NCBI RefSeq assembly: GCF_041146795.1
Contig: NC_135187.1
Span: 18,324,056 to 18,388,055 of the forward strand
Direction: 5' to 3'
Source: Maylandia zebra
Taxonomy: Eukaryota > Chordata > Actinopteri > Cichliformes > Cichlidae
DNA length: 64,000 nt
Shown: positions 2,709 through 48,253 of the stretch, piece after piece
How positions within the stretch are numbered: position 1 is the stretch's first letter
How the letters are laid out: every line of letters begins with the position of its first letter
Program-made: the position numbers and the translations under genes
The notes under the pieces: model-generated
What the model saw: only the letters and a program-made list of their open reading frames with translations
Databases searched by the model: none
Told to the model about the DNA's origin: nothing

Positions 2709-3044
2709 CTATGGTGTGTGAGGTGGGCCCCTGGGTGCCTCCTGTGAGGGCTGTCTGTTTTCCACATTCTGCAACGGTAAAATACGACTTTGAGGCGGAT
2801 ATTTGTTTTACCAAATGGACAATTGCTGTTGACAAAACTCGCCTCATGGTTGACTCTTTCCCACAGAGGGGGGTGCTTTAATAAACTTATTCGAATATGA
2901 GCTTTTTTTTCCGCTAAGGCTTATTTTAGGGGAGGAGATGTACGAAATTATTTACCGGGTTACAAGCAATGATAATATCGGCTGTTGACTCCTCAACGTC
3001 ATCATTTTCTATCTATTGAGAAAACCCATTGTAAAAGTACCCGC

Positions 3045-3106
<62 letters not shown>

Positions 3107-3120
3107 AAGATCGCCTGTCG
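2709..3120 (-). pseudogene. Mirrored left copy of a small split reading frame
   Basis: On the minus strand three exon-like blocks can be drawn. Block one is 3120..3041 (acceptor ATTGCAG, donor CGCGG|GTACTT), mostly a (CA)n tract read as His-Thr. Block two is 3012..2956 (acceptor CTCAATAG, donor CCCG|GTAAAT), coding for 19 residues IENDDVEESTADIIIACNP. Block three is 2768..2709 (acceptor CCGTTGCAG), coding for NVENRQPSQEAPRGPPHTP and a TAG stop. Blocks two and three join in phase 0. Block two differs from its partner in the right arm by an in-frame 6-base deletion, which suggests the frame was under constraint at some point. The acidic stretch followed by a small hydrophobic run (ADIII) resembles a SUMO-interacting motif. 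The family is unknown to me and the 5' part is undefined. It could be a live gene or a degenerate copy. Confidence 0.35.
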
Positions 3121-3198
3121 CTGCAATTATGGTTTGTTTTTCAGTCTCTCAAAAGGAAAAGTAGTATTCACTAAGGGATATTTATTCGTTTTTTACAC
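2743..3198 (+). repeat. Left arm of a large inverted repeat
   Basis: This arm is the reverse complement of 3973..4518, by eye close to identical apart from indels. Shared landmarks include TGTGAGGGCTGTCTG at the outer end, the block at 2871-2905 ending near TCGAATATGAGC, the block CGGGTTACAAGCAATG, and the inner end GGATATTTATTC. It contains a (TG)n tract at 3046-3102 mirrored by a (CA)n tract in the other arm. The left arm is about 90 bases shorter through several deletions. Confidence 0.9.
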
Positions 3199-3972
3199 AT
3201 AGGCAGCCTGTAGGTTACAAGCGGATAGAAAGTTCTTCTTTTCATCACAAGCTATGGTGTATCTTAAAGGTTTTTTACAGCGTCTGTATTATAGGAAAAT
3301 AAAATACTATTGAAATCTCTACAGGAAGTCACTCTTTATTTCCATTACAAACGCCGGTGCAGCTTAAGAAAGTAAAATTACACCCGCTATTGTAAAAAAA
3401 AACAGAGAAAATTGTCATAATATTGAAACAGAATTCAGACTATGAGTTTGCGGAAAACTAGCTGCCGCTCTGTCTCTCTATACATCACAGAATCATCTGC
3501 TGCATCACCGCTGTGCTTAGGGAACATGACGCATCAGGTCTGAAAATGACTAGACACTTCCGGAGTATTTCCGGTAGGATCGAGGCCTTCCATAGTAAAT
3601 ATGCTGTATTTGAATATGTCATATTCAAAGCCTTCTTCTTTGGGAGAGCAGATCTCATCGGACACAGGAGCGCTGCTGGGCTGCAGAAGGAAATCCATCC
3701 TGTGTGTCTGTGACTTAGAAATTGTGACGGACTCCTCCTCTCTGCTTTTTATTCTCCTCCCCTGCTGCAGACCCTCCCTCTAAAAACTTTTTTTCCCCCA
3801 ACAACAGATGGCGCGCTTCCGGGGTTCACCCCCCCTTCTCCGGATGCGATTCGTCACGCTCATTACACACTTCCGGGGGGGAGGGGGGGGAGGTCAAAAG
3901 GTCGTGATTAGGGCCATCAATCACTTCGGATTAAATTTTGTCATAAACTGTATGGGATTATCGCTCTCCCGT
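3199..3972. other. Spacer between the inverted-repeat arms, promoter-like
   Basis: About 774 bases separate the arms. No long reading frame is convincing. The right part holds several ETS-like ACTTCCGG sites (around 3555 and 3869) and CRE-like half sites (GTGACG near 3723, CGTCACG near 3852), next to a G-run. These are features of a CpG-type bidirectional promoter. Because the mirrored reading frames point away from this spacer on both sides, it is a reasonable candidate for a shared divergent promoter. That is inference. Confidence 0.35.
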
Positions 3973-4696: not shown

Positions 4697-4794
4697 ACGA
4701 GGATAAAATGAGAGAGGGGAGTTAAAAGAGCCGTTATCTGCTCAAACCCTACTGTGACAGTTCTACCAATCGCGAGGAAGCATCCGAGAATATT

Positions 4795-5826
4795 ATGTCA
4801 GCATTCCGTTCAAACAACACCGCCGATCAGAGCGCCAGGGCCATCTCGCCAGAAGTATTCGTACCTCACCCCGGTAAGTCTTTTTTTCTTTACGACTTTA
4901 AATTATATATCAACAGAGATGTCAATAATTTGATTACTTTCTTTTTGATTTCTACATCAATGATTTCACGCAAGTGGACTACGGTGCGATTAAATAAGTA
5001 TATATCATTTTTTAATTAGGTTTAGATAGACTTTTTTTAACGAAACTCTGTTACTTACAGAAGCTATCGATAGCGCGGTGAGTAGCAGCATAAATCCGGC
5101 CGTTTTCCGAGGCGATTTAGACGCCATCCTCCCCGCAGAACCTCCGCCGCCGCCGCAGCGAAAAGAAGAACAAGAAGACGACGTTATTTTCGTCTCCGCA
5201 TACCAGGAGAACTGCGGAGAAATAAGTTTTAAAACCGAAGGTAATCAATTTTTCTACAAAATAACGTATTCGAAAAGCCGAGTATGCTATACCGCCCCTC
5301 CCGACTTGGAGTGGTATAAAGTGTGCTAGAAAGTTGTTTTTTTTTTTTTAAATCTTTTTCTTTTTGTTTTATTTCTCGACAGCCGAGATTGAGAATATAC
5401 CTATTCAAACCCCCGCTACAGACAATCGGATGGAGGAGCGAGGTAAATAAAAGTTTTTCATTCTCAAAAATAGGAAGGAGGAGAGACACAATTTGTTTTC
5501 TTAAAACTTTTCTCTCTTCTGTTTTATTTCTCGACAGAGACCGATACAGAAAATCAGGCGGAGGAGGAATCGTCCAGAGCTCCTCCTCCTCTCAGGAGAC
5601 TGAGAGGTAATTGACGGGGGATGAATCGACCCTAATAAATAATTATGTTGTATTAATAAACTTCTCCGCTCTATAAAAAAATGTATGTTTTAAAAATACA
5701 TTCTGTCTGTCTTTTCTTACAGGTCGACGGCTACGTCATAAGAAGAGAATCCTTGGAGACCTCGCTTTCATGTACGCCATAACAGTCTGTGCATATGCAT
5801 CAATATATCGACACAATGATCTGTAA
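4795..5826 (+). CDS. Unidentified compact five-exon gene, 163 aa
   Basis: Exons 4795..4873, 5061..5240, 5383..5442, 5538..5606 and 5723..5826 total 492 bases and give one open frame of 163 residues ending at TAA. All four introns are phase 1, each breaking a codon after a G, have GT-AG ends and are short (187, 142, 95 and 116 bases). Introns 2 and 3 share the 3' end TTTTATTTCTCGACAG, so exons 3 and 4 may be a tandem duplication. The protein starts MSAFRSNNTADQSARA, then has a proline run (five Pro near residue 57), an acidic patch running into DDVIFVSAY that fits a SUMO-interacting motif, a Glu-rich middle, and an Arg/Lys-rich C terminus (RRLRGRRLRHKKR) followed by a hydrophobic stretch. I do not recognise the family. 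Exon 2 of this gene and the mirrored copies to the left share an acidic-hydrophobic pattern, so they may be relatives. No transcript evidence is available here. Confidence 0.6.
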
Positions 5827-5892
5827 AGTAAAGGGATGCAAAGTAAAAGCATACACATGTAAAAGTCTGTGAATTAAGAAATAAAGAAAATC

Positions 5893-6174
5893 ATGTCGGA
5901 AGAACGCAGCATTCCTGACGCTTTGTTGGAAGCCGTGGCAGAATTGAACAGAGACGTTGATCATATAGCCCCACCGATCGACCCCCTACAGCCTTTAGAA
6001 AACGCTTTGCAAGCCCTGCTTCAAAACATTGAAAACGAACGGCGTGCCGGTGTTGTGCCAAAAAGTGATTGTCTGCCAGAAACTGATTGCCGTCCGCGGG
6101 AGCGCGCGCAGCTGCTTAAAGCTGTAGCGCCCGGATTACTTGCGTTGCCAGCTACTTCCGTGCAACTGATATAA
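5893..6174 (+). CDS. 93-aa reading frame downstream of the five-exon gene
   Basis: An uninterrupted ATG-to-TAA frame 66 bases after the preceding stop, on the same strand. The first half is helical and acidic (LLEAVAELNRDVDHIAPP, LENALQALLQNIENER) and looks like protein. The second half runs through CCAAAAAGTGATTG at 6058-6071, a 14-base string repeated exactly in the tandem array at 6497, 6669 and 6843, so that half is probably repeat-derived. It may be a separate gene, a downstream frame on the same transcript, or a chance frame in a mobile element. Function unknown. Confidence 0.3.
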   Translation: MSEERSIPDALLEAVAELNRDVDHIAPPIDPLQPLENALQALLQNIENERRAGVVPKSDCLPETDCRPRERAQLLKAVAPGLLALPATSVQLI

Positions 6175-6412
6175 CGGGCGGGGGGGCAAACAAACACATT
6201 TATGCCTTTGTTATTAGGCAAAGGTATGCATTTATGAAACTTCAACGTTTCTTGTAACTGAATTATGACGCTTTTCAGAACGTTGCTTTCGGTGTGTAGC
6301 GCAGTCACGAATGACTACACGCATCACGATGGAATAATTAATGCCTACAGGTTTAGTATGTCTACTCTCGTTGTTCATATTTGTTATAAGACTGTCGAAT
6401 AGTAGTTAAAAC

Positions 6413-6418
6413 AATAAA
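6413..6418 (+). terminator. Candidate polyadenylation signal AATAAA
   Basis: The first canonical AATAAA after the 93-aa frame, followed about 10-20 bases on by T/G-rich sequence. It could end a transcript covering the five-exon gene and the 93-aa frame. Confidence 0.3.
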
Positions 6419-6484
6419 GACCGTTTGTGCCAGTATCACCATGACTCTTTCTTGTTAGTTCAGAATAACGACTGAGAACATGGC

Positions 6485-6998
6485 ATTTTAGCGCTACCAA
6501 AAAGTGATTGTGGCATAACTCGTCACTGAGATACTATTTCTGCTTCAAACTTGGTGGATGTCATTCAGAAGGGTTATATGTCAAATATTACACCTCAAAC
6601 AATCCCCCAGAACGGCTAAATTACCATTAAGGGAACAATAAAACTGACAATATGCAATTTTCAGCCTGCCAAAAAGTGATTGCCACCTATATCTTGTCAC
6701 TGAAACAATGTTTCTGCTTCAAAATTGTTGGATATCATCCAGAAGGGTTACATGTGACATATTATATCCCAAACACTCTCCAAGAACTGCTGAATAACTT
6801 TTAAAAGAACATTAATACCCATAATATGCCATTTTCGACCTGCCAAAAAGTGATTGTGGACTATATCTTGTCACTGAAACAATATTTCTGCTTCAGACTT
6901 GCTGGAAGTCATTCAGATGGGTCATATGTCAAATATTATATCTCCACCAGTCCCTTAGAACTGCTGAATAACTTTTAAAGGGACAATAATACCTATAA

Positions 6999-7002
<4 letters not shown>
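6485..7002 (+). repeat. Three tandem copies of a ~173-bp unit
   Basis: The marker CCAAAAAGTGATTG occurs at 6497, 6669 and 6843, and each time is followed in order by TTTCTGCTTCA, a GGGT(T/C)A(C/T)ATGT block, and a CTGAATAACTTTTAAA-like block (weaker in the first copy). Spacings are 172 and 174 bases. The copies are visibly diverged. The array ends in the (TG)n tract at 7003. A fourth, isolated copy of the marker lies at 6058 inside the 93-aa frame. Confidence 0.85.

Positions 7003-7096
<94 letters not shown>
7003..7096 (+). repeat. (TG)n-(TA)n compound microsatellite, left flank of the LINE
   Basis: TG repeats to about 7040, then TATATATATGTATGTA and TA repeats to 7096. The LINE fragment starts immediately after. 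The same TA/TG mix, in mirror order, flanks its 3' end at 8551-8634. Confidence 0.9.
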
Positions 7097-7097
<1 letters not shown>

Positions 7098-8489
7098 CGA
7101 GACATCGATTCACTGATCCACACTACCAGGCTATACAGCAATGACATTGGAATGTCGTTCGGACTGGAGAAGTGTAGTCGGATGGTAACAAAGAGAGGGA
7201 AGGTAGTCAGAACTGAGGGGATTGAACTACCAGAAGGCAACATTGCAGACATAGAGGACAGTTACAAGTACTTGGGGATCCCACAGGCGAATGGGAACCA
7301 TGAAGAGGCCGCTAGAAAAGCTGCAACCACCAAGTACCTGCAGAGGGTCAGGCAAGTCCTGAGGAGTCAGCTGAATGGTAAGAACAAGATCCGGGCCATC
7401 AACACGTACGCCCTGCCCGTGATCAGGTACCCTGCTGGGGTAATAGGCTGGCCAAAGGAGGAGATAGAAGCCACTGACATAAAGACAAGAAAGCTCCTTA
7501 CCATGCATGGAGGGTTTCACCCCAAATCCAGCACCCTGAGGCTGTACGCTAAGCGGAAGGAAGGGGGCCGGGGACTGGTGAGTGTCAGCACCACAGTCCA
7601 GGATGAGACAACGAACATCCAAGAATACATTGGGAAGATGGCCCCAACTGACCGAGTGCTCAGTGAATACCTCAGGCAGCAGAAACCCAAGAAAGAGGAG
7701 GGAGACGAGGAACCATCATGGAAGGACAGGCCCCTGCACGGTATGTACCACCGGCAGATAGGGGAGGTGGCTGATATCCAGAAATCCTACCAGTGGCTGG
7801 ACAAAGCTGGACTGAAAGACAGCACAGAAGCACTAATCATGGCAGCACAAGAACAAGCTCTGAGTACAAGATCCATAGAGGCTGGGGTCTATCACACCAG
7901 GCAAGACCCCAGGTGCAGGCTGTGTAAAGATGCCCCAGAGACAATCCAGCACATAACAGCAGGGTGCAAGATGCTAGCAGGCAAGGCATACATGGAACGC
8001 CATAACCAAGTGGCCGGCATAGTGTACAGGAACATCTGTGCCGAGTATAACCTGGAAGTCCCAAGGTCAAAATGGGAGATGCCCCCAAGGGTGGTGGAGA
8101 ATGACCGAGCTAAGATCCTGTGGGACTTCCAGATACAGACGGACAAAATGGTGGTGGCTAACCAACCGGACATAGTGGTGGTAGACAAACAGAAGAAGAC
8201 GGCCGTAGTGATCGATGTAGCGGTTCCGAATGACAGCAATATCAGGAAGAAGGAACACGAGAAGCTGGAGAAATACCAAGGGCTCAGAGAAGAGCTCGAG
8301 AGGATGTGGAGGGTGAAGGTAACAGTGGTCCCCGTGGTAATCGGAGCACTAGGTGCGGTGACTCCCAAGCTAGGCGAGTGGCTCCAGCAGATCCCGGGAA
8401 CAACATCGGAGATCTCTGTCCAGAAGAGCGCCGTCCTGGGAACAGCTAAGATACTGCGCAGGACCCTCAAGTTCCCAGGCCTCTGGTAG
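7098..8489 (+). CDS. C-terminal LINE polyprotein fragment (RT end, CCHC, RLE nuclease)
   Basis: The frame is open from 7098, just after an in-frame TAA at 7095 in the microsatellite, to TAG at 8487-8489, so at least 463 codons are intact. The start reads RDIDSLIHTTRLYSNDIGMS, typical of the thumb side of a reverse transcriptase rather than a true N terminus. A C-x2-C-x8-H-x4-C knuckle (CRLCKDAPETIQHITAGC) lies about three fifths along. The restriction-like endonuclease follows, with QPDIVVVDKQKKTAVVIDVA supplying the PD...D core and a downstream KLEKYQ supplying the basic residue. The polymerase catalytic domain is missing, so the copy cannot retrotranspose by itself, although the surviving frame has no disabling mutation and therefore looks young. 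Confidence 0.85.
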   Translation, partial: RDIDSLIHTTRLYSNDIGMSFGLEKCSRMVTKRGKVVRTEGIELPEGNIADIEDSYKYLGIPQANGNHEEAARKAATTKYLQRVRQVLRSQLNGKNKIRAINTYALPVIRYPAGVIGWPKEEIEATDIKTRKLLTMHGGFHPKSSTLRLYAKRKEGGRGLVSVSTTVQDETTNIQEYIGKMAPTDRVLSEYLRQQKPKKEEGDEEPSWKDRPLHGMYHRQIGEVADIQKSYQWLDKAGLKDSTEALIMAAQEQALSTRSIEAGVYHTRQDPRCRLCKDAPETIQHITAGCKMLAGKAYMERHNQVAGIVYRNICAEYNLEVPRSKWEMPPRVVENDRAKILWDFQIQTDKMVVANQPDIVVVDKQKKTAVVIDVAVPNDSNIRKKEHEKLEKYQGLREELERMWRVKVTVVPVVIGALGAVTPKLGEWLQQIPGTTSEISVQKSAVLGTAKILRRTLKFPGLW

Positions 8490-28817: not shown

Positions 28818-32157
<3,340 letters not shown>

Positions 32158-34838: not shown

Positions 34839-37800
34839 ATGAGTGATTTCGAAGGTAAAGCGATGTACATTAAGCTGGAGAGAGAAATTTACACTGATCT
34901 AAAAAATAACCTGGAAAAAAAAAAGCTAAACAACCGTTGGTTTCATATTTGCCAAAGGTTTTAAAGTAAATGTTCAGTATTTTACCCCTTAAGTATAACC
35001 TCTTTGTGAAATATTCTACCATCATCTTAATTTAAACATTAAAGCCTCTCATATTAGCCTAAATAAGTCTTTATTTAGGTTAGCAAAAAAACTAAGCTAG
35101 CGTTTCCACTTGGCTACCTATCGGGCAGGTGTTCAAGCTAGCCAGAAAACCTTACCTGCTTAAATTTAACCTCAGGTTAAAGATGATTTATAAAAGTAAC
35201 TATTTATTTATTTTGTACTTATTACCAGATTATAACCAGAGTAAGTAAGAATATTATAGAAAGGTAAAGTTATTACAAGTTTACATGACTCTAACGTTTC
35301 ACTTTATTACGTGACAGGGTTCAGCATCGAGAACATGATTAATGTGAAACCGCTGAGAGGAGGTAAACCAGCTGACGTTTCACTGCACACTGATAAACTT
35401 CAAAACCTCGAGCCTGATACGGTTCCGTGCGCTTCAGGTGGACAAATGCACGAGCCAAAGGTTGAACAGCTGATCGGAAAACTCGGGAGGCTTAAACAGG
35501 GTAATGTATGATTGATCTGTTCTATCAGATGTTTTTTGAATAGCTGCTAAATGTATTACTTACAGTTTTTGCCCGTTGCTTGAACACCATGAACCCATGC
35601 CTAGACTAAAGTAACACAAGTTGAAGCTTTTGTTACCATACCTCAAACACATGTACCCCTACCTTAAACAAAAGCGCTGCTTTGCACCCCAGTTCCAATT
35701 ATGCAACACACCTACTCCTTTATGCAACACACATGGTCCTGCATGCTACACTCCATTTCATACATAAGACACTTCGCTCACAAAATGAAATTTCAGGGTG
35801 CCATCCGGAAAACACATGTATCCAAAATACAAAACACATCGGGTAATTGCAACCACTCAAATACACACCTGAAGGCACTTACTTGCAAAACCGAACACCA
35901 ATTAGCCAACTACAAAAAGCCCTCAGCGTAGCCATTTCAAGAACTTTGCAAGCATGGATGGAGGGAGAGCAAGAGGAAGAGGAAGAGGTAGAGGAGGAAG
36001 AGGAGGAGGAGGCCGAAGAGGCCATGCACGGACCCATATTTCTGATGAAATAAGAGCAACTTTGGTGGACCATGTCATCAACCATGGCCTGACTATGAGG
36101 GAAGCTGGGCAGAGAGTCCACCCACATCTAAGCCGCTTCACAGTGGCATCTGTAATACGAACATTCCGACTAGAAAACAGGTATGTCTTCACCTCCATAC
36201 CTTCTGCTCTACTCAGATGGTTTTATAACACTGTTCTACAGTATATCACATTACCATATCAAGTGTACGGGGTGCTAATGCTCCTTTTGCAGCCAAAGTG
36301 GCTGATTCCTTATATTGAAGTACAGTGTTGTACAGTGGATGACACAGTGCATACAGTAAAGTACTGTAAGAAAAATAAGCAAACCGATGACAATATCAAA
36401 TTCAAATTTCAAATTCAAATTTTATTTGTCACGTACACAGTCATACACAGTACGATATGTAGTGAAATGCTTGGACAACTGCTCGTGACCTAAAGAAAAC
36501 AAAAAAGGAAAGGCTATGAATAAGATAGGAAATAAATATGAAAAATTAAAAAGGGTAAATTGTCTGCCCTAGTGAGGGCAGACAATGCCATCCGTCTCCA
36601 CCAGCTACGACGGAAAATACTTGCAGACAGGCGAGTGTTCAGCAACATAGACCATGTGAGCATCACCACCATCAGACGCATCTTGGGTAAACACAGCATC
36701 ACCATGAAGCAGCTCTACAGAGTCCCATTCGAGAGGAACAGTGACAGGGTCAAAGGACTTCGAGCTGAATATGTACGGGTACGTGTAACTGTCCCTTACA
36801 TTTACAATAGAGTATTGGTGAAGTCCAGTAGCAGCTGAATATGTACCATATCAGTACCACATGGATCTATTCTGAGAGCTACACAGGTACCTGTGTGATG
36901 GGGTGAGGGTGCTGAATGTGTAGCACTGTAGTACAGTGATATGTTCCCCTTTTTTTCAGAGAATCTTGGCCATGGATGGAGCTGCACAGCCTCATGAATA
37001 CATTTTCATTGATGAAGCTGGATTCGACCTGAGCAAAACAAGACGACGGGGTCGTAATGTAATTGGCCAAAGGGCAATTGTGCACGTCCCAGGGCAGCGC
37101 GGGGGAAACATCACATTATGTGCCGCCATATGCCTTCGAGGGCTTCTGCACCATCATGCAATACTAGGTCCATACAATAGCCAACACATACTCACATTTC
37201 TAGATGCTCTCCATGATATAGTTGTACAGAACAGACCAGATCAGCCCAGGTTTGTGGTGATATGGGATAATGTCAGTTTCCATCGGGCTGCTCTGGTCCA
37301 GGCCTGGTTCTCCAACCACAATCAATTTGAAGTGGTATACTTGCCCCCTTACTCACCATTTTTGAACCCTATAGAGGAATTTTTTTCGGCTTGGAGATGG
37401 CGAGTATATGACCGCCAACCACATGCCCGCATGCCTCTTCTGCAGGCAATGGAACAGGCCTGCGGCGACATTCAGGTGACAGCAATCCATGGATGGTTTC
37501 GACATGCAAGAGGATATTTTCCCCGGTGCCTAGCGGGAGAGGACATTGCTTGCGATGTTGATGAGGTCCTGTGGCCAGACCCCAACAGACGGCGGGATCC
37601 ATGAGCCCACTTATGCACAATTGTCATGGTTTTTTGTGTTTACAGTATAGTGTTTTTTCTATTGCAGTATTATTGTGTTGTTGTTGTTTTTTTTGCTTTA
37701 TCTGAATTCATGGTACTGCAATGTACAATATTGAGTAGGTCTATTTGCGTTTTTGGTTGTTTGAAAATGTGTCTCCTGTAAATGTGCCTTCTGAATAAAC

Positions 37801-40716
37801 AATGGAAATCAAGGACTGCAGTGTTTTATATAAAGAAGACTAGTGTGTTCCCCCTGATCTGTCAGTGTTTGCATATGATGCAAGTATGTGTCATTTTGTC
37901 AACAGAGTTACATTTTGACAAAGGAATGTCAGGTTTTGACAGCAGAGTTTAGGTTTTGGGAGTAGAGTTTCAATTTGGCACAGATGTGAATGGTATATTT
38001 GTGTTGTGTCATGTGTCATGTGTACTTGTGTGTACAGTTTTGGCACAGAGAGCGGAGTTTTGCAAAATGTGTTCAAGCAGTGGGCAAAAACTGTAACAGG
38101 ACGGCAGATATATAACGTTTACGGTAAGACTGTTCAGACTCAATAGCGACATCTGCCGGTGATCCTTTTCTCCCCGGTTTTTTCAGACGAGTTTTGGGGA
38201 GACGAACAATGTTTCGCCTATAATAATAATGATGATACTACTACTACTAATAATAATAATAATAAAAATGATAAACGACTCTGGGTTTTATCGGAAGCCT
38301 TGTGGGCCTGGTTTTGCTGTGTTTGCAGTAAATTTGGCTTAATCGAAGGATTCGTGTAAAGCAAACGAACTCGTTGTCGTGTCTTTCCGTCTTGTGTTGA
38401 CCTGCGATAGCGACGCGCATGCGTGTCGTTATACAAAGGCCTGTAGATAACTAATAAATCCGCCGTTGGCGTCATTTTTATCTGTCGAATAATGAGCTTA
38501 TTCACTTGATCTGTAGGAGCACTAAGCATGTAACTAAGTACATGTGTTTAGTACAAACCAGTCCGTCTGTCAGCTCATAATGTGTCTCTATCCAAATGGG
38601 AGGTAGTCACAAGTTCCGCTTCCGGTAGCAAGCCCCGTATAATTTTCCTTATATTAGACAAAAATCGCGATAGCATGCGAATTTGTGACATTTTCATGTT
38701 TTCTCAAGTGATGAGACACGCGTACAACGTGAAAAACACGTTAACAACTTTTTTACGGAGGGATAGAAACGTTATTTATGCGCACCAATGAGAGCGCAGT
38801 ATATAGCGATATGCTAATGAACACGCGCTCCCTGTTTACTTTAACAGAAATATTATAGAATATAGCTCAATTTCTTTACAAATTTACATAACATCCGTGC
38901 TGTTTATAGCACTATAGGCAGAATGTAAGTGCTAAATATTTACACAGAAATTTAAAACCGTGAGTAAAACATGCATATGCGTTGTTGATAATGTCTCTGT
39001 GAACTATGGTTGGGTATCGTCAGTGAGGTATATCCTTACCTGTTACTCCATTTATGGAGTTGCAGAAAATGATGAATGGAGAGCTATGAGATATGATTAG
39101 TATCTCCCTCTTTTGGGGAACAGCAACACCCCTTAAGAGCCATTCTGATTAACTTGTGAAATGTAATTGTAATATTTTGCAAAGTTTATCCTGTCTTTGT
39201 ATTATTTGTTGGAAACCTATGTTATGTAATGTTGTTGTGCTGTGTCTAAGGCATTGTTCTCAATTTAAGGTAAAAGAGCCCTGGAAGAAGAAATTGAGAA
39301 GACAAAGTCAGTCAGTGACTCACTGGAGAAGGAGCTGGAAAACTGTAAGACACGAAGTTAATGATCTTCACACAGTCTTTACTAAACCAGCAACTGAGAT
39401 ACTGTCCTTGATTCACAGTACAAACTAAAGTCTTCCAACTGGAGGCAATCCACAAAGAAAAGGAAGGTATGCAAGTGCTAGTGGCAAACAGTTGTACACG
39501 TATAGTTCATCATTTATAAGTGTACAGGCATTAAATGTGAGCCCACTGATGAACATAGTTGCTCGTCTGTTTCTTCAGAGGTGTGCAATAAGCTGCAGTT
39601 TCAGTGTGAAGAGTCTGAGCAGGACGCTGCCAGGTGAGCTCCGTGCTGAAAGTTTGAAGAGATTTACTGGATCTGCTCAGTCATAAGGAGCATTCTTTGC
39701 TGAACCATCAATGGGCTTCATTTGTGTTTTTTGATGTTGAACACTAGATGGCAGTAATCTGTCTTTTTTAGCATCCTGGATACTTTTTTTATTTTATTTT
39801 TATTTTATTTGGGGTTGAATCTTTATATAGTTAGATAATGTTGTACAGCCCGATACTGCTGTCTTAGCTTTTGCTTCTTCTTTCAATTGTGTTTAATTGC
39901 CCACAATCTGCCCATTTATTCAATTAAATACCTGAAAAGGATGCACCTTCCCACATTCAGTCAGTGTAAACAGGTAGTCAGAGATATAATGGTTTTTTAT
40001 TTAAGATTAGAATCTGCTTTTTATTACATTTATTGTTTGAAAATCTTTTATTAGTTTTAATCTTTTTAAGTTTTATTGTATTTTGTGTTTATATCTGTGT
40101 GTGTGTTTCAGACATTTACAACTGAATAAGAAAAGTGAGGAGCTGCTGGAGCAGTATAGATATGAAATCCAGGATGTCAAGCTTAAACACCGAAAACTGC
40201 GGTACTGTTTAATAGTGCAAAGACTCGTTTTCTGTGAAAAACCTCTGGCTGTTGTTACACATTTAGAAACTCATGTTTCTGCAGGATGAGATTTGAAAAC
40301 CAGCTTCATCAACTGATAGACCAGCACAAGAATCTGCACTATGTCTTTGTAAGTGTTTGTGCTAAATTCTCTCCACAACTCTTGTGAGAAGATTCAAATG
40401 TGACTTTATTATTATATTATTATTATGACTTTACTCAGACTCCAGAGAGACTCCCAGATGAATTAAAGAGTGTTGAGAATACAAAGAGCCAGCTGTTGGC
40501 AGCTGGTAAGCATCTCCGCACACTCTTCTCTCAGCACAAATGTTGTATGTGTGTGAATACAGCGTTTGTTTTCACTTTCCAGCACTGTCACTGAATTTCT
40601 TCTGTGTTTTGACAGAAAAGCTAAAGCTCACTCAGCTGCACAACCTCGATGAGGAGCTGGAAAAGATGAAGAACCAGAAGCAGGCTCAGGAAGCAGCTGC
40701 AGAGACTCAGGAGTAA
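34839..40716 (+). CDS. syce1: SYCE1-like synaptonemal complex central element protein
   Basis: Nine exons: 34839..34854, 35318..35500, 39270..39344, 39419..39466, 39579..39633, 40112..40201, 40285..40348, 40439..40505 and 40616..40716. They total 699 bases, 232 aa, all phases consistent. The central block (EPKVEQLIGKLGRLKQGKRA, then MRFENQLHQLIDQHKNLHYV and PERLPDELKSVENTKSQLL) lines up with mammalian SYCE1 (EPRVEVLINRI, FEEQLEDLMGQHKDL, PERLAKEI). The protein is mostly Glu/Lys-rich coiled coil, as expected for a component of the central element that holds homologous chromosomes together in meiosis. It is shorter than human SYCE1 (about 351 aa) because the C-terminal extension is lacking. Intron 2 (35501..39269) contains a complete-looking Tc1/mariner element. 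The 3' end faces fam83h. Expression is expected in germ cells, by family knowledge. Confidence 0.78.
35563..35585 (+). repeat. Left terminal inverted repeat of the transposon
   Basis: Begins CAGTTTTTGCCCG directly after the TA at 35561-35562; pairs with 38071-38093. Confidence 0.92.
35954..37604 (+). CDS. DD35E Tc1/mariner transposase, spliced
   Basis: A three-exon reading keeps the frame: 35954..36180 (donor AACAG|GTATGT), 36577..36778 (donor CGG|GTACGT) and 36960..37604 (acceptor TTTTTTTCAG). This gives 1074 bases, 357 aa. The N terminus is an unusual Arg/Gly run (GRARGRGRGRGGRGG), then a helix-turn-helix region (EIRATLVDHVINHGLTMREA). The catalytic core has FIDEAGF (first Asp), VVIWDNVSFHRA (second Asp) and PPYSPFLNPIEEFF (Glu), with 35 residues between the second Asp and the Glu of NPIE. 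The join into exon 2 is the weakest point because that acceptor follows an inserted repeat and a perfect 9-base hairpin (36563-36584), so some N-terminal linker may be lost. No stop interrupts the catalytic exon. Activity cannot be judged. Confidence 0.8.
36395..36560 (+). repeat. Short interspersed repeat inside the transposase gene
   Basis: A sequence with TTTTATTTGTCACGTACACA and GTGAAATGCTTGGACAACTG, which I recognise as a motif scattered widely in fish genomes, followed by an A-rich tail. It interrupts the first intron of the transposase, so it inserted later than the transposon. Confidence 0.55.
38071..38093 (+). repeat. Right terminal inverted repeat of the transposon
   Basis: Ends GGGCAAAAACTG directly before the TA at 38094-38095; complement of the left end with a single-base difference in the inner part. 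Confidence 0.92.
38096..39269 (+). other. Remainder of syce1 intron 2
   Basis: Contains a trinucleotide run of TAA/ACT type at 38220-38268 and a stretch at 38380-38860 that is richer in CpG than its neighbours. No gene or named element was recognised. Confidence 0.45.

Positions 40717-43266: not shown

Positions 43267-48253
<4,987 letters not shown>

Follow-up and report, generated by a model that had tools for sequence, protein, structure and literature searches.

The sequence analysed here, referred to as the window, is a 64,000-nucleotide stretch of Maylandia zebra DNA that carries at positions 4795-5826 a spliced open reading frame, ORF1, with a second frame, ORF2, downstream and an inverted repeat upstream. 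When the gene model was recomputed from the sequence, five exons with GT-AG splice sites and a 492-nt open frame were found exactly as claimed in the original prediction, and all four introns proved to be in phase 1, as had also been claimed. The exons (79, 180, 60, 69, and 104 nt, 492 nt together) encode 163 amino acids plus a stop codon and are separated by introns of 187, 142, 95, and 116 nt. The internal exons are all multiples of three in a single phase, that is, symmetric. The GC content is 51% in the exons and 27-33% in the introns. The features of the locus are listed below.

2743-3149, plus strand: left arm of the inverted repeat, ungapped pieces 91-100% complementary
3534-3698, minus strand: open reading frame of 54 codons between the arms, weakly similar to the alternative N terminus of the family protein P0015
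4048-4518, minus strand: right arm of the inverted repeat, upstream of ORF1, ungapped pieces 91-100% complementary
4795-4873, plus strand: ORF1 exon 1 (cassette 1, MSAFRSNNTADQSARAISPEVFVPHP), homologous first cassette in 12 of 13 family proteins, P0015 being the exception
4947-4982, plus strand: relic of cassette 1b (DFYINDFTQVDY) in intron 1, tblastn match 4947-4991
5061-5240, plus strand: ORF1 exon 2 (cassette 2a), its 5' end a tandem acceptor CAG/AAG
5183-5194, plus strand: VIFV behind the acidic run EEQEDD, resembling a SUMO-interacting motif, from a motif scan of the family rows
5383-5442, plus strand: ORF1 exon 3 (cassette 3), a unit repeated in other copies
5538-5606, plus strand: ORF1 exon 4, related to exon 3 over its 5' part
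5723-5826, plus strand: ORF1 exon 5, with a basic stretch, a C-terminal helix predicted from the low-confidence model of P0004, and the stop codon
5880-5885, plus strand: AATAAA, beginning 54 nt after the ORF1 stop and separated from the ORF2 ATG by 7 nt
5893-6057, plus strand: 5' part of ORF2, with homology to P0013 as far as 6057 and to P0014 as far as 6033
6413-6418, plus strand: AATAAA downstream of ORF2

ORF1, ORF2, and the inverted repeat

That the ORF1 exon chain is unlikely to have arisen by chance had likewise been proposed, and a shuffle control agrees. We searched for ATG-to-stop chains with exactly four introns of 70-250 nt, GTRA donors, and pyrimidine-rich YAG acceptors, and the longest chain in the real sequence was 492 nt, both with the restriction to phase 1 and in any phase. 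In dinucleotide-preserving shuffles of positions 4700-5900, an all-phase-1 chain appeared in 0/200 and an any-phase chain in 1/200 (273 nt), under splice rules that were fixed after the gene had been seen and are thus biased in favour of ORF1. The NCBI label "isoform X2" gives a hint of transcription. We consider ORF1 almost certainly a real, spliced, protein-coding gene.

The ORF2 frame extends to a stop codon at 6174, and its homology covers the first 55 codons, to 6057, ending one base short of a CCAAAAAGTGATTG motif at 6058. The same motif recurs at 6497, 6669, and 6843, within a three-copy tandem repeat of a 174-nt unit at 6471-7036. The ORF2 structure model contained helices only, with a mean pLDDT of 57.5, too weak for a fold search. 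Of the two ORF2 homologues, P0013 (118 aa) comes from a 2-kb contig and P0014 from Sarotherodon. The latter and the ORF1 homologue P0008 are on contigs of equal size (67,195,764), and the two proteins are labelled RE1-silencing transcription factor and nitric oxide-associated protein 1, respectively. The genes for these two proteins are neighbours in vertebrates. The equal contig size and the neighbour-gene names together suggest that ORF1 and ORF2 lie at one Sarotherodon site, other than the SACK1 region of the window. ORF2 probably travels with ORF1.

The two arms of the inverted repeat gave a gapped alignment in which 422/462 aligned bases were identical, the edges of the right arm being those of the input stretch. 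Each arm contains a CA/GT run, and the core of about 0.8-0.9 kb between them includes a promoter-like stretch on the minus strand. CCGGAA sites, which we take to be ETS-like, and an AATAAAA box lie upstream of the 54-codon minus-strand frame, whose place in the ORF1 unit is uncertain. An invertible promoter or first exon was considered and rejected: the similarity between the P0015 N terminus and the 54-codon frame is weak (score 39, reached in 8/2000 shuffles; the best of 2181 window segments, with the next three scoring 38) and serves as a lead at most, and by eye the frame has no good phase-1 donor. The arms are a candidate foldback transposon, with target-site duplications sought by eye alone. 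The flanks at 2480-2800 and 6050-6520 showed no mutual similarity above that of shuffles.

Several other features were observed in the window. A 463-aa open frame at 7098-8489, with a weak zf-RVT match under the Pfam cut-off, is probably part of a non-LTR retrotransposon. A transposase-like frame at 36936-37604 contains a DDE_3 domain (E 9.7e-28) and is presumably of the Tc1/mariner type. A U8 snoRNA match (RF00096, 105.9 bits) is found at 39017-39149, and a Bax1-I-like piece below the cut-off at 29499-29876. A minus-strand gene at 43267-48253 contains pieces of a SACK1 domain at 45785-46429 and 47705-48253, and we take it to be of the FAM83 type; its 802-aa frame at 43267-45675 gave no Pfam match.

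The cichlid protein family and its exon cassettes

The gene had been described as unrecognised, which does not hold: NCBI already predicts the product as LOC143414570 of Maylandia zebra. The ORF1 product equals isoform X2 of this prediction (P0002) but for one residue, which falls at the tandem acceptor of exon 2 and is missing from the NCBI isoform. When 5.8 billion proteins were searched with the 163-residue query, 12 of 94 candidates were homologues, and a profile search gave 13 proteins among 7612 candidates (E 8.2e-146 to 1.7e-56); the search requires shared 5-residue words, so remote relatives beyond cichlids may escape it, and the homologues, being predicted proteins, over-represent intact frames. 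All 13 are under cichlid names, from six African cichlid species: Pundamilia nyererei (one), Maylandia zebra (two), Astatotilapia calliptera (two), Oreochromis niloticus (three), O. aureus (two), and Sarotherodon galilaeus (three). They cover the window product completely except for P0011 (96%), P0012 (80%), and P0015 (44%). The NCBI identifiers in the family are LOC143414570 and LOC143413317 (Maylandia zebra), LOC102212601 (Pundamilia nyererei), LOC120435456 (Oreochromis aureus), LOC109194172 (O. niloticus), and LOC113018149 (Astatotilapia calliptera). None of these six predictions bears a functional name, none of the six identifiers was named in any paper found in the open-licence literature, and no paper there was recognised as describing the family. 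Two O. niloticus clusters, P0003 and P0005, also bear an nr name starting "Mustela putorius fu", which is odd for a cichlid protein.

The further claim that the product belongs to no known family stands with respect to Pfam and PDB and falls with respect to the multi-copy cichlid family of which it is a member. The profile and structure-database search for a known family returned no convincing Pfam or PDB match. For the 13-row family alignment, the window row hit 0 Pfam families at E ≤1 and the best other value was 0.011 (threshold E 0.001), and the PDB gave 0 matches at E ≤5. Two ORF1 exon stretches had no Pfam match, ORF2 had one at chance level (0.35), and its homologues P0013 and P0014 had a best Pfam value of 0.034 and nothing convincing in the PDB. 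Exon 2 and ORF2 found nothing convincing in PHROGs, which holds phage families and is therefore of little information here. Pattern matches were confirmed as relatives in 0/13 cases for ORF1 and 0/6 for P0014 in the virus collection IMG/VR, and in 0/81 in a genome scan of the prokaryote collection GTDB, two collections from which the genome of the window may be absent. With a permissive cut-off, all Rfam matches scored far below the gathering scores of their families.

In the midpoint-rooted tree, a single clade (99/99), split into two sub-groups, unites the six haplochromine rows, the tilapia-group rows fall into several lineages, and P0015 is a long branch. The family is thus present across haplochromines and tilapias. 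The three Sarotherodon members are on contigs of three sizes (67.2, 32.1, and 137.0 Mb), which argues for dispersal of the family.

As had been proposed, symmetric exons appear to have been duplicated or skipped without loss of frame, since most members of the family are told apart by entire cassettes that lie at exon junctions. The window has the order 1-2a-3-4-5, the Pundamilia protein 1-2a-2b-3-4-5, and four of the five Oreochromis proteins 1-1b-2a-2b-3-4-5 with cassette 3 present one to three times. Cassette 1b occurs in 8 of the 13 proteins (P0003-P0006, P0008, P0010, P0012, and P0015), cassette 2b in 12 (partial in P0011), being missing from the window and P0002, and each of the 12 proteins that stay in frame as far as cassette 3 has between one and three copies of it. 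Cassettes 1b, 2b, and the extra copies of cassette 3 are placed at window exon junctions to within about a residue because of repeated letters, on a map whose references were built from the same alignments and which is therefore not independent of them. In the window, the cassette 1b relic has by eye no AG at the position where the exon starts in other copies.

Not all differences lie at junctions. P0011 is without part of 2b and the whole of cassette 4, with deletions inside cassettes, and small indels within exons are also present among family members. P0009 contains a stretch resembling a mis-predicted frame, P0012 stops short of exon 5, and P0015 departs from the others at its N terminus, is out of frame at its C terminus, and contains stretches that look mis-predicted.

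The intron ends upstream of exons 3 and 4 had been noted as similar, and alignment bears this out: the terminal 60 nt of introns 2 and 3 align with a score of 30 (0/500 shuffles), and the other five intron-end pairs are at shuffle level. The common origin suggested for the two exons is also supported by a 26-nt alignment (score 16, 0/500 shuffles), the other nine exon pairs having no significant similarity. These sequence comparisons support a shared origin of exon 4 and its acceptor with exon 3. Near-identical intron ends such as these would probably serve as recombination sites. By eye, cassette 2b starts like exon 3 and ends like 2a, as if it had recombined from the two. Judged from these comparisons, the proteins very probably form a modular cassette family whose copies gain or lose whole phase-1 exons. 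The ORF1 family is a natural case of exon-cassette evolution over a short time scale, in which related copies and species display gain, loss, and apparent recombination of symmetric exons.

Motifs and predicted properties of the ORF1 product

An acidic run followed by a VIFV core, features that we take to be those of a SUMO-interacting motif, recurs throughout the family. All 14 rows (13 proteins and the window) have at least one acidic flank with VIFV, VIYV, or VVFV; seven of them, including the window, have one motif and the other seven have two. The pattern fails in cassette 2a of P0007, P0009, P0010, P0011, and P0012 and is present in their 2b; for P0009, the loss in 2a may be a prediction error. 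In the rows without 2b (the window and P0002), the motif is present in 2a. When each protein was shuffled, the motif count was matched in 132-269/1000 shuffles for one-motif rows and in 24-59/1000 for two-motif rows, a weak control. Since shuffles often match the count, support for the motif rests on its conservation, among rows that are mutually related.

The net charge of the window product is -18 over residues 1-118 and +9 over residues 119-163. The structure model of P0004 (mean pLDDT 41.4) has very low confidence throughout and shows a single long C-terminal helix at 193-230; it fits a disordered protein and could also be a failed model, and the ORF1 protein is probably disordered on this prediction. 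A membrane tail anchor was considered because of the hydrophobic C terminus of the window product (mean 1.65 over 17 residues). The corresponding stretch in P0004, however, contains arginines and falls to 0.86, and a basic or amphipathic C-terminal helix was preferred to the anchor.

As a tentative mechanism, the product would be a flexible nuclear adaptor. Its acidic VIFV cassettes would bind SUMO or SUMOylated proteins, and the basic C-terminal helix would bind nucleic acid or serve as a nuclear signal. The number of cassettes would set the binding valency, with one motif here and two in seven other copies, and the product could blunt SUMO-dependent silencing of its mobile unit. Read from motifs, this SUMO-binding mechanism is possible rather than likely.

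A candidate mobile unit and its alternatives

CpG is not depleted at the ORF1 locus. The observed/expected ratio is 1.25 in the ORF1 exons, 1.28 in the introns, and 0.48 in the whole window. For positions 4795-6057 it is 1.28, a value reached by 0/603 other overlapping windows of the same size (maximum 1.07). Among 127 bins of 500 bp, the bin at 5001 is the highest (1.52) and that at 5501 has 0.98; other high bins are those at 38001 (1.33), 38501 (1.20), and 27501 (1.15). AT-rich introns without CpG loss suggest either a recent arrival or an unmethylated region. An old family with a fresh-looking copy would fit repeated movement.

Dispersal of the family, probable co-travel of ORF2, compact spacing, and undepleted CpG speak for a mobile unit. 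We lean towards the reading that ORF1 is an accessory gene of a candidate multi-gene unit, mobile or virus-like and dispersed, in which ORF2 is carried as well. The joint claim of a real gene, a cassette family, and a mobile unit has in our judgement an even chance.

The main rival is a lineage-specific family of ordinary host genes that segmental duplication has multiplied, ORF2 being another host gene within the duplicated block. This is consistent with the Pfam scans, in which the stretches examined near ORF1 and ORF2 yielded no transposase, integrase, or viral gene, the exception being the retrotransposon-like frame about 1 kb downstream, past CpG-poor repeats. The supported haplochromine clade with two sub-groups is also what host duplicates would give. 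However, the surroundings differ by name (NOA1, REST, and serine protease 57 in Sarotherodon; SACK1 pieces in the window), the spacing of the genes is very tight, and CpG is undepleted even in the AT-rich introns, although high CpG can alternatively mean an unmethylated region. We regard the host family as a possible but rather unlikely explanation.

ORF1 might instead belong to the non-core genes of an element resembling Teratorn (piggyBac-herpesvirus); this is one form of the mobile-unit reading, and the two probabilities overlap. The compact layout, undepleted CpG, and short introns would suit a DNA virus, and Teratorn-like elements are a plausible carrier. Against this, Pfam found no piggyBac or herpesvirus domain in 14 distinct window stretches (10 of the 20 window ORFs of at least 120 aa and four shorter ones), though the window copy could be a fragment; no protein among the 13 carries the name of medaka or another non-cichlid Teratorn host; and neither IMG/VR search confirmed a relative. 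As an explanation of this locus it is improbable. That the window copy is a decaying pseudogene or a splicing artefact is very improbable, because, in spite of the reduced cassette 1b, the absent cassette 2b, and the shortened homology of ORF2, the frame is uninterrupted across every exon and junction, NCBI has a matching model, and a comparable chain appeared in none of the 200 shuffles.

If the family rides a mobile or viral unit, as we prefer, it would represent a new system of accessory genes in fish that are known to have radiated rapidly, with a testable link between exon modularity and motif dosage. The further idea of an undescribed virus-like element of African cichlids, moving still or until recently, in which the shuffling of SUMO-motif cassettes tunes engagement of host silencing, is speculative and on present evidence unlikely.

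Among known systems, LOC143414570 isoform X2 is identical to the window product bar one residue, and the other NCBI family predictions have extra cassettes (1b, 2b, or repeated 3) compared with it. Teratorn-like piggyBac-herpesvirus elements occur in cichlids, with multiple copies in Nile tilapia, and medaka Teratorn has 18-bp terminal inverted repeats and long inverted repeats, according to excerpts of two reports (PMC5601938, PMC5822658); cichlids go unmentioned in the excerpt of a third (PMC10175614). These elements share with the ORF1 locus a multi-copy state in a cichlid, compact virus-like genes, and, in medaka Teratorn, long inverted repeats, and differ from it in that the window stretches scanned contain no transposase or herpesvirus gene. 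RNF4-type proteins with multiple SUMO-interacting motifs resemble the ORF1 product in having an acidic run beside a hydrophobic core in one or two copies, whereas searches of the ORF1 product gave neither a RING nor any other known domain. Gene families with symmetric modular exons have, like ORF1, internal exons that are multiples of three in one phase. In such families, gain or loss of whole exons preserves the reading frame. The ORF1 exons differ from theirs in that they seem to encode linear motifs, not folded domains.
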